This document shows positions 38,000-57,013 of a stretch of 64,000 nt of DNA, piece by piece. The stretch is from NCBI RefSeq assembly GCF_005280655.1, contig NZ_CP040058.1, forward strand, positions 3,279,001-3,343,000, written 5' to 3'. Origin of the DNA: Anaerostipes rhamnosivorans (GTDB lineage: Bacteria > Bacillota > Clostridia > Lachnospirales > Lachnospiraceae). The translations under genes were made by a program, and so were the position numbers. Below the pieces are notes generated by a model. It saw only the letters and a list, made by a program, of their open reading frames with translations. It did no database searches and was not told the DNA's origin. The number at the start of each line of letters is the position of its first letter. Positions within the stretch are counted from its first letter, which is position 1.

Positions 38000-38010
38000 G
38001 TCTGCCTGTA

Positions 38011-38039
38011 TTGACGATAAGGCTAATGGGATATATGAT
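38011..38039 (+). promoter_or_regulatory. Promoter of the adenine riboswitch / acetyltransferase gene
   Basis: TTGACG (38011-38016) and TATGAT (38034-38039) are 17 nt apart, starting 12 nt after the pflB stop. No separate pflB terminator lies between, so pfl transcripts may also run into the riboswitch. Confidence 0.8.
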
Positions 38040-38046
38040 ATATATA

Positions 38047-38151
38047 GCAATTATATAAGCTCATAATATGGTTGAGCGTTTCTACCAACTGCCGTAAATA
38101 GTTGATTATAATTCATTGAATTATGATCATCAGCTATTTACGGCAGTTTTT
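38047..38151 (+). promoter_or_regulatory. Adenine-type purine riboswitch with terminator
   Basis: P1 AATTA/TAATT (38049-38053, 38109-38113), J1/2 TATAA, P2 GCTCA/TGAGC with loop TAATATGGT, J2/3 GTTTCTACC (38078-38086), P3 AACT/AGTT with loop GCCGTAAAT, and J3/1 ATTA follow the purine aptamer consensus. The ligand-pairing base (position 74) is T at 38106, which selects adenine. The 5' arm of P3 also forms a perfect 15-bp terminator stem with 38134-38148 plus T5, excluding the aptamer. Adenine binding should therefore switch expression on, as in pbuE. Confidence 0.9.
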
Positions 38152-38193
38152 GTTACATCATATTAGAGTACCTTAAAAGAAAGAAGGGTTTGA

Positions 38194-38829
38194 ATGGATT
38201 ACAAATACTTAAGAATGGAAGATTGCAAGAGAAAAGAGCATTTTGAATATTTTAACAGTTTAAGTTACCCATATGTTGGACTGACCGTAAACATTGATAT
38301 TACAAGTTTATTAAATACGACAAAAGCAGAAAATCTCCCGTTTTTTCTTACCATCTGCTACTGCGTTTCAAAAGCGGCAAATGGTATTCCGGAATTTAGG
38401 CAGCGGATACTCCATCATAAAATCATAGAATTTGATAACTGCAAAACATCTCATACGCTGGCATTAGAGGACGGTACCTATTGCTATTGTACCCTTGACA
38501 GTACTGTCCCTTTTTCAGAGTTTCTACCTTATGCGGTCCGGGAACAGGAGGCCGCAAAGCAGAATAGAACTATAAACGAAGATGATGATATATGCGGCAA
38601 GATTTTTATTTCCTCGTTGCCCTGGATTTCTTACACCTCTCTTGTTCAGCCTGTACCTATTCCAGCAGATAGTAATCCAAGAATCACATGGGGAAAGTAT
38701 TTTGTTCAGGAAGGTAAGGTGATGATGCCTGTCTCTGTGCTGTGCCATCATGGCCTAGTTGATGGGATACACATTGCTGACTTCTATAAATTATTGGACA
38801 AACATATTCTTGCAATCTGTCAGCCATAG
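38194..38829 (+). CDS. Chloramphenicol acetyltransferase-family O-acetyltransferase (CatA-like)
   Basis: Predicted acetyl-CoA-dependent acetyltransferase of 211 residues, the standard CAT length. It has the N-terminal RKEHFEYF stretch, FISSLPWISYTSL near 145-158 (the CAT Ser148 region) and the catalytic motif HHGLVDGIHIADFY near 185, with both His and Asp present. GAAAGAAGGG precedes the ATG. Being under an adenine riboswitch is not what a drug-resistance gene needs, so the physiological substrate may be a purine-related or other small metabolite; that is inference. Chloramphenicol activity cannot be judged from sequence. Confidence 0.88.
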   Translation: MDYKYLRMEDCKRKEHFEYFNSLSYPYVGLTVNIDITSLLNTTKAENLPFFLTICYCVSKAANGIPEFRQRILHHKIIEFDNCKTSHTLALEDGTYCYCTLDSTVPFSEFLPYAVREQEAAKQNRTINEDDDICGKIFISSLPWISYTSLVQPVPIPADSNPRITWGKYFVQEGKVMMPVSVLCHHGLVDGIHIADFYKLLDKHILAICQP

Positions 38830-38868
38830 CCCAATATTAAGACATAGGCGATTCAAGGACGTAAAGAC

Positions 38869-38897
38869 TTGACAGAGAAAATCGGGCGTGCTATAGT
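38869..38897 (+). promoter_or_regulatory. Promoter of the ABC-F attenuator region
   Basis: TTGACA (38869-38874) and TATAGT (38892-38897), 17 nt apart, followed by a leader of about 380 nt before the ABC-F start codon. Confidence 0.85.
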
Positions 38898-38933
38898 TTT
38901 GGCATTGAAATTTTTGATAAAAGGAGAAATAAC

Positions 38934-39029
38934 ATGGGCGTTAACATGACAGACCAGCTTACAAGGCGAAACAGCTCTGTACAATTCAGAACGATGAAAC
39001 ATTGTGCAGAGTACGGCGGTAAGCTTTAA
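38934..39029 (+). CDS. Leader peptide of the ABC-F gene
   Basis: A 31-codon ORF starting MGVNMTDQLTRRNSS and ending KL, with AAAGGAGAAATAAC just upstream of the ATG. It lies between a consensus promoter and two intrinsic terminators that precede an ABC-F gene, the layout of ribosome-stalling attenuators for antibiotic-responsive ABC-F, erm and msr genes. A stem CGATGAAA/TTTCATCG (38992-38999, 39032-39039) spans its stop codon and would be disturbed by a stalled ribosome. Confidence 0.7.
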   Translation: MGVNMTDQLTRRNSSVQFRTMKHCAEYGGKL

Positions 39030-39283: not shown

Positions 39284-40819
39284 ATGAGTTTATTAGAGAT
39301 TAAAGAATTATCCCATATCTTTGGTGATAAAATATTATTTGAAAATACAGAATTCCAGCTTAACAAGGGAGAACACGTTGGAATTGTAGGCCCCAACGGG
39401 GCAGGAAAGAGCACCCTTTTAAACATCTGTACCGGACAGATCACTCCTGACTCAGGCCGTGTCATCTGGCAACCGAAGGCTTCTTATGGATGCCTGGACC
39501 AGTATGCGCACATGGAGTCTGAGATCACCATTGCAGACTTTTTGAGATCAGCTTTCCATGAGTTGTATACCATGGAAGAACAGATGAATCTTCTGTATGC
39601 ACAGGCGGCCTCAGGAGATGAAGAATCTCTCTCCCGTGCTGCCCGATACCAGGAGCAGCTGGAGACGAGAGATTTTTACCAGACTGACACCCGGATTGAA
39701 CAGGTGGCATCCGGTCTGGGTCTGCTCCCCTTAGGCCTTGACCGCAAGGTTGGACAGATCAGCGGCGGGCAGCGCGCAAAGGTGATCCTTGCGAAGCTTC
39801 TATTAGAAAAGCCCTCTGTCCTGCTGCTGGATGAGCCCACCAACTTCTTAGATAAAGAGCATGTGACATGGCTGTCAGACTACCTCTCAGGGCTATCCAA
39901 TGCCTTTATGGTGGTCTCCCATGACAATGACTTTTTGGAGAAGACCGTCAACCGCATATGTGATCTGCAAAACAAAAGCCTGACAAAATATTATGGAACC
40001 TACTCTGAGTTCTTAAAGAAGAAAACATTTTTACAGGAAGAGTCTGTCCGCCGTTATGCTGCCCAACAGAAAAGGATCAAAGAAACAGAAGATTTTATCC
40101 GCAGAAACATTGCGGGAAGGAAATCTAAGATGGCCAAAGGACGCCAGAAACAGCTTGAGAGGATCGACCGATTAGATGACCCTGCCTTGACAACACCCCG
40201 CCCGCATTTTAACTTCTCCACTCTGCCCGTGACCAATGCGGATCATTTATCCGTCAGAAATATGGCAGTGGGTTATGAGTATCCGTTGCTCTCCGGTCTT
40301 TCATTTGCTGTAAAAGGAGGGCAGAAACTTGTGATCACAGGTTTCAACGGGATCGGAAAATCCACACTGCTGAAAACCCTGACTGGACAGATAAAGGCTC
40401 TTCACGGAACATTTTCTTTTTCAGAACAGGTCACTTTAGGATACTTTGAACAGGACCTAGTCTGGCAGGATCCATCCCGGACACCGGTCCAGACCGTATC
40501 AGATCATGATCCCGCCCTTCCGGTAAAAAAGGTCCGACAGCATCTGGCCCGGTGCGGTATCTCCAGCCAGCATGCAAGGCAGGAGATAGGCACATTAAGC
40601 GGCGGCGAACAGGCCAAGGTTAAATTGTGCCTGCTGACCTTGAGACCCTGCAACTTTTTGATCATGGATGAGCCCACAAATCATTTGGACGTGCAGGCAA
40701 AGGAGGCCCTGAAGGCTGCCCTGGAAAACTTTCCGGGTACAGTACTGCTCGTATCCCACGAGGAATCCTTTTACCGGGACTGGGCGGACCGTATTATCTG
40801 TGTGGGAATGATAAAATGA
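39284..40819 (+). CDS. ABC-F family ATPase (ribosome-associated, possible antibiotic resistance protein)
   Basis: A 511-residue protein with two ABC cassettes and no transmembrane segments. Cassette 1 has GPNGAGKST near 36, SGGQRAKV and LLLDEPTNFLD. Cassette 2 has GFNGIGKST near 353, LSGGEQAKV and LIMDEPTNHLD. A charged linker of about 80 residues (QQKRIKETEDF...KQLERIDRL) lies between them, as in ribosome-protecting ABC-F proteins. Start 39284 follows AGAAAGGAA; a frame reaching 39203 crosses the terminator. The attenuator upstream suggests induction by a translation inhibitor. Whether it is a resistance factor or a housekeeping ABC-F cannot be settled here. Confidence 0.9.
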   Translation: MSLLEIKELSHIFGDKILFENTEFQLNKGEHVGIVGPNGAGKSTLLNICTGQITPDSGRVIWQPKASYGCLDQYAHMESEITIADFLRSAFHELYTMEEQMNLLYAQAASGDEESLSRAARYQEQLETRDFYQTDTRIEQVASGLGLLPLGLDRKVGQISGGQRAKVILAKLLLEKPSVLLLDEPTNFLDKEHVTWLSDYLSGLSNAFMVVSHDNDFLEKTVNRICDLQNKSLTKYYGTYSEFLKKKTFLQEESVRRYAAQQKRIKETEDFIRRNIAGRKSKMAKGRQKQLERIDRLDDPALTTPRPHFNFSTLPVTNADHLSVRNMAVGYEYPLLSGLSFAVKGGQKLVITGFNGIGKSTLLKTLTGQIKALHGTFSFSEQVTLGYFEQDLVWQDPSRTPVQTVSDHDPALPVKKVRQHLARCGISSQHARQEIGTLSGGEQAKVKLCLLTLRPCNFLIMDEPTNHLDVQAKEALKAALENFPGTVLLVSHEESFYRDWADRIICVGMIK

Positions 40820-40980: not shown

Positions 40981-40999
40981 AATGTTTGAGGAGGACTAT

Positions 41000-41428
41000 A
41001 TGTGCATAAATAAAACCGACATCTTAATATCTCAGGAACTTTCCGTTTCTGATTTTTTATCCCTCCGCAGACAGGTGGACTTCCAGCCGTTGAGCATAAC
41101 TCAGGCTGAAAACATATTAAAGAATACCACCTATATCACTGCTGCATATGACGGCAGCAAATGCATCGGCCTGACCCGTCTGCTTTTTGATTATGGAACC
41201 GATGCATATATCACAGATGTCATCGTCCACCCTGAGTATCAGGGATACGGCATCGGAAAAATGCTGATCAAAGATGTACTCCTGTTTATAAAGGAGAAAT
41301 CTTCTCCCCATACGATTGTCACATGCAGCCTTTATGCAAATAAAGGAAAAGAGATGTTTTATGAAAAGCTTGGGTTCTCCAGGCTCCCCAATGAGAAATA
41401 TGGCGGCGGGATGGCAATCGATCTGTGA
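41000..41428 (+). CDS. GNAT N-acetyltransferase
   Basis: A 142-residue acetyltransferase with the acetyl-CoA loop VHPEYQGYGIGKMLIKDVL (Q/RxxGxG/A near 83-90) after a strand DAYITDVIV, and a C-terminal YANKGKEMFYEKLGF, the usual GNAT4 helix. Start 41000 is 5 nt after TGAGGAGG; an ATG at 40982 lies before the SD. The substrate is unknown. It stands alone, convergent with the small membrane protein gene that follows. Confidence 0.85.
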   Translation: MCINKTDILISQELSVSDFLSLRRQVDFQPLSITQAENILKNTTYITAAYDGSKCIGLTRLLFDYGTDAYITDVIVHPEYQGYGIGKMLIKDVLLFIKEKSSPHTIVTCSLYANKGKEMFYEKLGFSRLPNEKYGGGMAIDL

Positions 41429-41638: not shown

Positions 41639-41678
41639 ACCTCACTCCTTCTATTACTCAAAAATCATATAGAAAATG

Positions 41679-55345: not shown

Positions 55346-57013
55346 CTATTCTCCTTTGTCCTTTATGATCTGATAGTTACTTACATCGACTAACCCTTTG
55401 TCCGTAAGGCGGAGTTCCGGAATCACCGGAAGCGCCATAAAGGACAGTGTAATAAACGGATCACAATCCTCTGATATGTTCATCATTCTTGCTGTCTGTA
55501 CCATAGCGTCAATCCGCTCCTGTATTCTTTTTGCCGGCCATGTGCTCATAAGTCCTGCAATGGGAAGCGGAAGCCTTCCCGCCTCTTCACCATTTCTCAC
55601 CAGCGCATAGCCCCCCTGCATATCCTGAATGATTTCCACTGCTTTGATGATATCCTCATCACTGTCTCCCGCCGCTATGATATTGTGCGAGTCGTGGGCT
55701 ACCGAGGTGGCAATGGCTCCTCCAGTGATACCGTATCCTTTTAACGGTGCAGCTGTAATATTCCCGGTTCCCCGGTGGCGTTCAAACACGCACAGCTTAG
55801 AATACACAGAATCTGGCTGAAACAGCCCATTCTCTGACGGAACCTGTTCCATCAGATACTTTGTAATAATCTGTCCCGGTACCAGCCCTATGACAGGTAC
55901 CTTCCCCTGTGTGCGCAGCAAAAGCTGATTCTTTTGAAACGGCTTTACATTCACTGTGTGAAGCATGGCCCCGTAATCCGTATCCGCTTCTTTCCCCTCT
56001 GAAAGCATCTCCTGTGAAGAGACACCTTTTTTATAGACCTGGAGAACGTTGAAATCCTCCAGGGAATCTAATGCGACGATATCAGCGTCATACCCCTTTT
56101 CCAGGCATCCGATGTTTTGGAGTCCGTAGGTCTGTGCAGTATTCCAGGTTGCCATAGCTATGGCCTCCTCTGGCTTCAGGCCCAGCCGGATGCTTTTCTT
56201 CACATTAAAGCTGATATGGCCTTCCTGCTCAATGGTGTCCAGATGCTTGTCGTCCGTACAAAAGAGGAATTCTTCTGTGCTGAGACCTTTTTCAACCAAG
56301 CCCGTCACAATGGCCTCCACATTTCTGGCCGCACTGCCCTCTCTGATCAGAATCTTCATGCCGGCTTTCCATTTTTCTTCTGCCTCCGCAAATGATGTAC
56401 ATTCGTGGTCTGTCATGACTCCCGCTTCTATATACCTTCTCAGATCTTCACCTGTCAGTCCCGGTGCATGGCCGTCTATGACCTTATCCTTACAGAGAGC
56501 GATCTTATCCATGATCTCCTTACTTCCAGCCAGGACATCCGGATAACACATGACCTCTCCCAGGCCGAGCACTCTTGGATGTCCAATCCACGTCTCCATA
56601 TCTTTAGACGTGAAATCTGCCCCATTAGTTTCAAACGGAGTGGAAGGAATTGATGACGGAAGCATCACATAGACCGAAACGGGAAGATTTTCGGTGGCAC
56701 CCAGAAGATATCTCACAGCTTCATTTCCGCTGACATTGACCATCTCATGTGGATCTGCGATCACGGTTGTCGTCCCGTGGGGAAGGATTGCATTGGCAAA
56801 CTCACACGGTGCCGCCATGCTGGACTCTATGTGCACATGGGCATCGATAAATCCCGGGCATAGCACTTTTGCCGTGCAGTCGATCTCCTTTTCTCCGGTG
56901 AAATCCCCGACTGCGGCGATCTTCCCATCTGATACGGCCAGATCTGCCTGAAAGCAAGTCTTTTTTTTGACGTCTACAATTGTTCCATTTTTAAATACCA
57001 GATCGTATGTCAT
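55346..57013 (-). CDS. ade: Adenine deaminase
   Basis: Metal-dependent hydrolase turning adenine into hypoxanthine, 555 residues. GFIDAHVHIESSM near 55 and IADPHEMVNVSG near 85 give metal His and Glu; HAPGLTG near 178 and DHECTSFAE near 200 complete the site; FCTDDKH near 245 follows. This is the long Ade type, with a C-terminal domain. It lies 12 nt after metK and probably shares its transcript, so it can remove adenine released by SAM/SAH turnover. Confidence 0.94.
   Translation of the reverse strand: MTYDLVFKNGTIVDVKKKTCFQADLAVSDGKIAAVGDFTGEKEIDCTAKVLCPGFIDAHVHIESSMAAPCEFANAILPHGTTTVIADPHEMVNVSGNEAVRYLLGATENLPVSVYVMLPSSIPSTPFETNGADFTSKDMETWIGHPRVLGLGEVMCYPDVLAGSKEIMDKIALCKDKVIDGHAPGLTGEDLRRYIEAGVMTDHECTSFAEAEEKWKAGMKILIREGSAARNVEAIVTGLVEKGLSTEEFLFCTDDKHLDTIEQEGHISFNVKKSIRLGLKPEEAIAMATWNTAQTYGLQNIGCLEKGYDADIVALDSLEDFNVLQVYKKGVSSQEMLSEGKEADTDYGAMLHTVNVKPFQKNQLLLRTQGKVPVIGLVPGQIITKYLMEQVPSENGLFQPDSVYSKLCVFERHRGTGNITAAPLKGYGITGGAIATSVAHDSHNIIAAGDSDEDIIKAVEIIQDMQGGYALVRNGEEAGRLPLPIAGLMSTWPAKRIQERIDAMVQTARMMNISEDCDPFITLSFMALPVIPELRLTDKGLVDVSNYQIIKDKGE

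Follow-up and report, generated by a model that had tools for sequence, protein, structure and literature searches.

A predicted adenine-class riboswitch of the pbuE design before a CatA-like acetyltransferase gene of Anaerostipes rhamnosivorans, and the nucleoside context of the enzyme's relatives

Introduction

The pbuE (ydhL) gene of Bacillus subtilis encodes a purine efflux pump. According to PMC7707468, it is controlled by an adenine-class riboswitch with a weak P1 and ON logic, in which P1 and P3 are given up when the terminator forms; control is kinetic, the terminator being the more stable state and adenine working by delaying strand exchange. The present study concerns a locus with an aptamer and a terminator of this kind, found in a window of Anaerostipes rhamnosivorans (the whole stretch of DNA analysed, 64,000 nt, to which all coordinates refer unless a locus is named), where the gene behind the switch codes not for a pump but for an O-acetyltransferase of the chloramphenicol acetyltransferase (CAT) family. 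The locus holds an aptamer with U74, a terminator that excludes it, and an intact reading frame with its catalytic residues. With a probability of about 0.58, we read it as an adenine-responsive, pbuE-design transcriptional ON riboswitch that controls a CAT-family O-acetyltransferase of nucleoside metabolism, and not of chloramphenicol resistance.

On the protein side, comparison is made with the type A CATs (CAT I, CAT III). PMC12549896 gives His195, Ser148 and I172 of CAT III, with I172V as one of four changes letting this enzyme bind fusidic acid, and lists Ile166 of the Staphylococcus aureus CAT among 13 residues contacting docked chloramphenicol. Among 109 open-access entries listed out of 816 matches (overlaps counted), no title or abstract opening reports a CAT-like gene preceded by a purine riboswitch, or a bacterial nucleoside O-acetyltransferase.

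Results

Riboswitch and terminator

A preliminary description of the locus, made from the sequence alone, had proposed a purine aptamer complete in all its parts, with T at the ligand-pairing position 38106 and adenine as ligand, and had suggested a covariance search with Rfam Purine (RF00167). This search matches the full model well above its gathering score of 37. The main features are as follows.

38031 to 38128, + strand: aptamer of the Purine riboswitch class, matching RF00167 over its whole length (67.8 bits, E 9.5e-10)
38105 to 38106, + strand: J3/1, with A73 and, as the base that sets the specificity, U74 of the adenine class (Rfam alignment and the rule in PMC11477304)
38087 to 38151, + strand: intrinsic terminator, 16 + 12 pairs with a 3-nt loop, a 3-nt bulge and T5 (folding energy, shuffles)
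38194 to 38829, + strand: gene for a CatA-like O-acetyltransferase, 211 aa with HHGLVDG, and the ribosome-binding-site (RBS)-like AAGAAGGG just 5' (open reading frame (ORF), PF00302, alignments)

The core is canonical: J1/2 (TAA), J2/3 (GTTTCTAC), L2 and L3 (CCGTAAA) all have the consensus, and P1 consists of seven A-U pairs (38049-38055 with 38107-38113). The Rfam alignment places the T at 38106 in position 74, flanked by A73 (38105) and the 3' strand of P1, and the expected C to U change at this position is the sole informative departure from the junction consensus. According to PMC11477304, U74 goes with adenine and C74 with guanine. The aptamer thus falls in the adenine subclass, having U74 with the remaining junction bases at consensus, and this makes adenine its predicted ligand.

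The terminator has a lower stem of 16 pairs (38087-38102 with 38133-38148) and an upper stem of 12 pairs (38103-38114 with 38118-38129), followed by TTTTT. At -34.3 kcal/mol (z -11.1; 0/200 shuffles equally stable), it is far more stable than the isolated aptamer (-10.5 kcal/mol). Its 5' arm is made up of P3 minus its first base, L3, J3/1 and the 3' strand of P1, and aptamer and terminator are therefore mutually exclusive, with P1 and P3 both consumed as in pbuE. The reuse of the P3 5' arm had been described correctly, while the 15-bp stem first given is in fact one of 16 + 12 pairs. A simple scan for terminators did not list this one, because a bulged hairpin of 28 pairs falls outside its rules (loops of 3-8 bases, unbroken stem).

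This anatomy and the core sequence back the earlier proposal of an ON switch for adenine, and they predict a transcriptional ON direction with kinetic control. Without adenine, strand exchange in the nascent RNA would proceed through P1 and P3, so that the terminator would form and transcription would stop; adenine at U74 would lock the junction and slow the exchange, so that the polymerase would reach the gene. A candidate promoter is placed accordingly upstream, although promoter-like sites are not commoner than in shuffles (4 found against 4.0 expected).

38011 to 38039, + strand: sigma-70-like promoter TTGACG-17-TATGAT, predicted start at about 38046, just before P1 (10/12 matches; placement)

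The CatA-like enzyme

The gene behind the switch is intact, as had been noted, and its product belongs to PF00302 (100.3 bits against a Pfam gathering cut-off of 23.5), with HHxxxDG present. It scores below the cut-offs of the NCBIfam models for CatA (NF000491, 96.8 against 270 bits) and for CatA-like 1-3 (NF033155, 97.2/300; NF040637, 77.4/250; NF040638, 80.1/275 bits), and the CatA of a Klebsiella plasmid is 29% identical to it. The likeness to type A CATs extends to the residues of catalysis: the catalytic pair His195 and Asp199 of CAT III is retained as His186 and Asp190, and its oxyanion residue Ser148 as Ser140. The difference lies in the acceptor strand, where NFFAPV of CAT I is replaced by ADSNPR, and where D159, N161, P162 and R163 are invariant across 41 aligned rows. 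In the alignments to CAT I and CAT III, R163 falls on CAT III residue 172, with which Ile166 of the S. aureus enzyme was equated from the shift in numbering between the matching Ser and His residues. This correspondence indicates that the ADSNPR strand lines the acceptor site and that this strand has lost hydrophobic character, so that the acceptor may reasonably be supposed to be polar. The AlphaFold2 model of the enzyme has a mean predicted local distance difference test (pLDDT) score of 47, too low for reading the pocket or for a structure search.

Gene context and phylogeny of the relatives

An indication of the enzyme's role comes from the genes that stand before its relatives. Four genes from Lachnospiraceae metagenome-assembled genomes (L003, L004, L006 and L009) and one from a Clostridia bacterium (L014) are 63-71% identical to the window's and belong to its clade in both trees described below, but have no Purine match. 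In L003 and L004 the order is uridine phosphorylase, deoC, deoB, CatA-like, the last two being 27 bases apart, which makes cotranscription with a nucleoside gene likely; in L014 it is uridine phosphorylase, deoC, cdd, deoB, CatA-like. In L006 and L009 the CatA-like gene follows punA (gaps of 172 and 134 bases), with BPD_transp_2 permeases further upstream (by Pfam for L006, by tblastn for both) that are taken for nucleoside transporters. In a sixth locus, L012, it follows a PNP_UDP_1 phosphorylase gene, 21 bases away. These neighbours were called with NCBIfam and Pfam for L003, L014, L006, L009 and L012, and with local tblastn for all six.

Upstream context was counted for 38 loci, 39 having been searched and L015 dropped as its CatA gene matched only partly; the upstream DNA is short in L098 (1.1 kb, with an N-run), L007 (1.3 kb), and L115 and L116 (1.5 kb each). 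The loci not scored as nucleoside-positive include L095 (DeoR-like regulator gene adjacent), L005 (HD/YfbR-like gene two genes up) and L112 (phosphorylase-like gene downstream). In L095 (6063-7673), the gene for the DeoR-like regulator (NF053881, 182 bits, cut-off 420) ends 6 bases before a CatA-like gene whose product is 64% identical to the window's.

A first tree, built from 85 rows with a quick method, groups the window enzyme in a 43-row clade with a support of 95 in the Shimodaira-Hasegawa-like approximate likelihood ratio test (SH-aLRT). Its members of known context are all nucleoside-linked (5/5), against 1/33 elsewhere, a count in which L122-L125, absent from this tree, are taken as outside (Fisher 1.2e-5; 3/3 against 1/32 and 6e-4 once three near-twin pairs are merged; both values serve as a guide only). 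A second tree was built with a careful method from 65 rows, from which distant rows and P0041-P0050 had been removed and to which L122-L125 had been added. The window clade then comprises 38 rows (support 81/97) and includes L012; all positives (6/6) and no negative are inside it, and the nucleoside label requires 3 changes, as few as in none of 500 shuffles.

Several observations weigh against a role in nucleoside metabolism. On the first tree the nucleoside label takes 5 changes, and 55/500 shuffles are as low; the support of the window clade is moderate, with a bootstrap of 81 in the careful tree; and the choice of the seven query families followed a first look at the neighbours. The positives include near-twins (L003/L004 and L006/L009), the CatA copy of L014 is cut at its C-terminus and has no HHxxxDG region, and 3.3 kb downstream of L112, a more distant CAT, lies a phosphorylase-like gene. 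Such clustering is also to be expected from shared ancestry by itself. The nucleoside-operon context, present for the close relatives, is missing at the window gene itself: none of the seven query families was found in the window (0/7), and the gene lies between pflB and an ABC-F gene, with no nucleoside genes beside it. None of the relatives' loci scanned has the riboswitch (see below). Moreover, co-localisation with nucleoside genes is not activity, and the role of the enzyme is deduced from context.

Linkage between riboswitch and gene

Relatives of the enzyme were found in 11/397 genomes of the family and 15/391 of the class (E <= 1e-30), 3/398 of the phylum (E <= 1e-40) and 6/383 of the order (E <= 1e-60), where each count includes the window's genome and the genome draws overlap; 13 additional relatives came from a search of genome contigs. 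The genus mate G007 has no match in the family search (E <= 1e-30). The nearest relatives, P0002-P0007 (74-79% identical), are known as proteins only.

Rfam scans found a Purine (RF00167) match at 0/30 of the relatives' loci. These 30 (13 + 10 + 7) leave out the distant L083-L094, L115 and L116, as well as P0002-P0007; for 17 of them the DNA covered reaches only some 1.5 kb beyond the gene in either direction, L015 has a partial gene and L021 an N-run just upstream. A conserved linkage of riboswitch and gene is thus rejected for the loci scanned. The preliminary description had named the loss of this linkage in related genomes as a reason to abandon its proposal, and on this point the result goes against it: the pairing has so far been seen only at the window locus.

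The converse comparison, starting from the most similar riboswitches in the 397 family genomes, covered 29 loci, and in none of them does the first ORF behind the riboswitch code for a CAT (0/29). Ten of them were aligned by Rfam, with U74 only in L063 and C74 in L069, and visual inspection of the remaining 19 showed no U74. L063 (920-1568; G384, same family; 64.5 bits) resembles the window's switch in A73 and U74, with P2 and L2 one base off, but differs in that an RBS-like GGAGG directly follows P1, so that it is probably translational, and in its gene, a 181-aa ORF without Pfam match that is HD-like by eye. Among L041-L069, several purine riboswitches of the family have T or C for A73 (GTCTA, GCCTA), and may correspond to the reported 8-oxoguanine-type variants. 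Many riboswitches of this set precede amidohydrolases resembling guanine deaminases (by eye, with Pfam only for the A. rhamnosivorans copy).

History of the site

The riboswitch and its gene lie in a stretch that separates the window from its two sister genomes.

38000 to 38907, + strand: stretch absent from both sister genomes between pflB and the uup leader; its G+C content is 37.9%, that of the window 46.0% (genome comparison)

Both sister genomes (G003 and G006) match the window up to 37998 and resume at 38908, the riboswitch, the gene and the tail being missing together. In the remaining 8 members of the genus, nothing in the 10-17 kb around pflB matches the stretch, and no genome-wide search of the genus for CatA was made. 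Purine matches occur in 2/11 genus genomes, with two in A. rhamnosivorans and one in G003; the second of A. rhamnosivorans is of the C74 type and precedes an amidohydrolase gene. Gain at this site would be a simpler history than loss elsewhere. No further ORF of at least 80 aa lies wholly within the stretch. No viral relatives of the enzyme were found; the records that match it number 7 for plasmids, all below 60% identity, and 4 for the phage collection (28-38%). A plasmid search with the riboswitch leader gave no match.

Neighbourhood

Upstream, a ZTP riboswitch (RF01750, 34843-34927, 58.7 bits) precedes pflA-pflB, in the classic pfl association, so that the ZTP riboswitch, pflA-pflB and the adenine riboswitch follow one another on one strand. 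From the stop codon of pflB to the terminator of the adenine riboswitch, the simple scan called no other terminator, and pfl transcripts may therefore end at that of the riboswitch.

Downstream, a uup RNA (RF03060, 38965-39012) precedes the ABC-F gene and lies inside a 31-codon ORF (38934-39029). G003 and G006 also have the uup RNA here, with an ORF sharing the core SVQFR-MKHCAEYGG; as the sister genomes have both in common, the ORF suggests a translated leader peptide that would sense stalled ribosomes. Further on, a GNAT acetyltransferase gene (40982-41428) is likewise missing in both sister genomes, where the match ends at 40797 and resumes at 41664. Two acetyltransferase genes, both lineage-specific additions, thus flank a conserved ABC-F gene.

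The adenine deaminase gene mentioned in the preliminary description is indeed in the window, at 55346-57013 on the - strand (589.5 bits with TIGR01178, cut-off 472.5), beside metK and about 17 kb away. Adenine metabolism thus does exist here, but the deaminase gene proves no link to the riboswitch gene.

Discussion

The ligand class at this locus and the operon context of the enzyme's relatives are two independent lines leading to nucleosides. Since the switch is predicted to sense a purine base and the relatives stand beside enzymes that release bases or pentose phosphates, acetylation of a nucleoside or pentose is the simplest joint reading. On weaker grounds, its acceptor is taken to be a nucleoside or a nucleoside-derived pentose, with acetylation perhaps at a primary hydroxyl, for instance the 5'-OH. 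High adenine would then be a signal of nucleoside breakdown, inducing an O-acetyltransferase that would act on the nucleoside or pentose. An enzyme for a purine-derived or adenine-accompanied metabolite had been proposed before; the position of the relatives' genes after deoB, punA or a phosphorylase gene favours this part of the proposal, and the missing linkage at the 30 loci does not.

LacA probably acetylates unusable galactosides, and by analogy the acetylation considered here may take place when purine nucleosides flood the cell. Only tentatively can this be extended to the whole clade, whose members would be nucleoside or pentose O-acetyltransferases, a purine and pyrimidine counterpart of LacA capping surplus or unusable nucleosides for disposal, with some genes in deo or pun operons and one lineage under an adenine riboswitch; we would rather expect this wider picture to fail in some part than to hold.

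It is unlikely, but not negligibly so, that the purine riboswitch of another gene happened to land before an incoming acetyltransferase gene, leaving it with regulation that has no metabolic reason. The pairing is seen only here, with 0/30 for the relatives' loci and 0/29 for the similar riboswitches, and the stretch is missing from two sister genomes, all of which such a capture would explain. However, neither the aptamer with U74 nor the terminator that closely matches it is damaged, and this speaks for selection; the relatives of the enzyme, independently, adjoin purine and pyrimidine nucleoside genes.

Somewhat less probable again is the inactivation of a drug or toxin with adenine as the cue, where the enzyme would acetylate an antibiotic, either chloramphenicol or a nucleoside antibiotic that contains adenine, and the switch would couple the gene to purine release under stress. 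The membership in PF00302 fits this, and the nearby ABC-F and GNAT genes keep a resistance role possible: the product of the next gene scores 384.8 against the 380 cut-off of a ribosome-protection-like ABC-F model, behind a uup RNA, and the GNAT gene after it is missing from the sister genomes like the CatA-like gene. Yet the enzyme is far under the CatA cut-off and has an altered acceptor strand, its relatives sit in deo and punA operons, and the plasmid matches are few and distant. That the ligand is another compound reading U74, with the role of the gene following that ligand, is very improbable, as several family relatives do have an altered J3/1 but the junction here is consensus except for the expected change at 74.

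Neither the RNA class nor the fold is new. What appears to be new, going by the titles and abstract openings covered, is the kind of gene found under a known riboswitch class, together with a metabolic context for a clade of CAT-like enzymes. Most genes of this clade are nameless, and those that have a name are called chloramphenicol acetyltransferases or CatA-like, so that some surveys may take them for resistance genes. Together, the predicted riboswitch ligand and the relatives' operons give a concrete list of candidate substrates for an orphan enzyme. If the preferred reading is true, an acetylation step would be added to nucleoside metabolism in these Clostridia; and if the comparison with LacA also holds, this would be a riboswitch-controlled acetylation step in nucleoside overflow.
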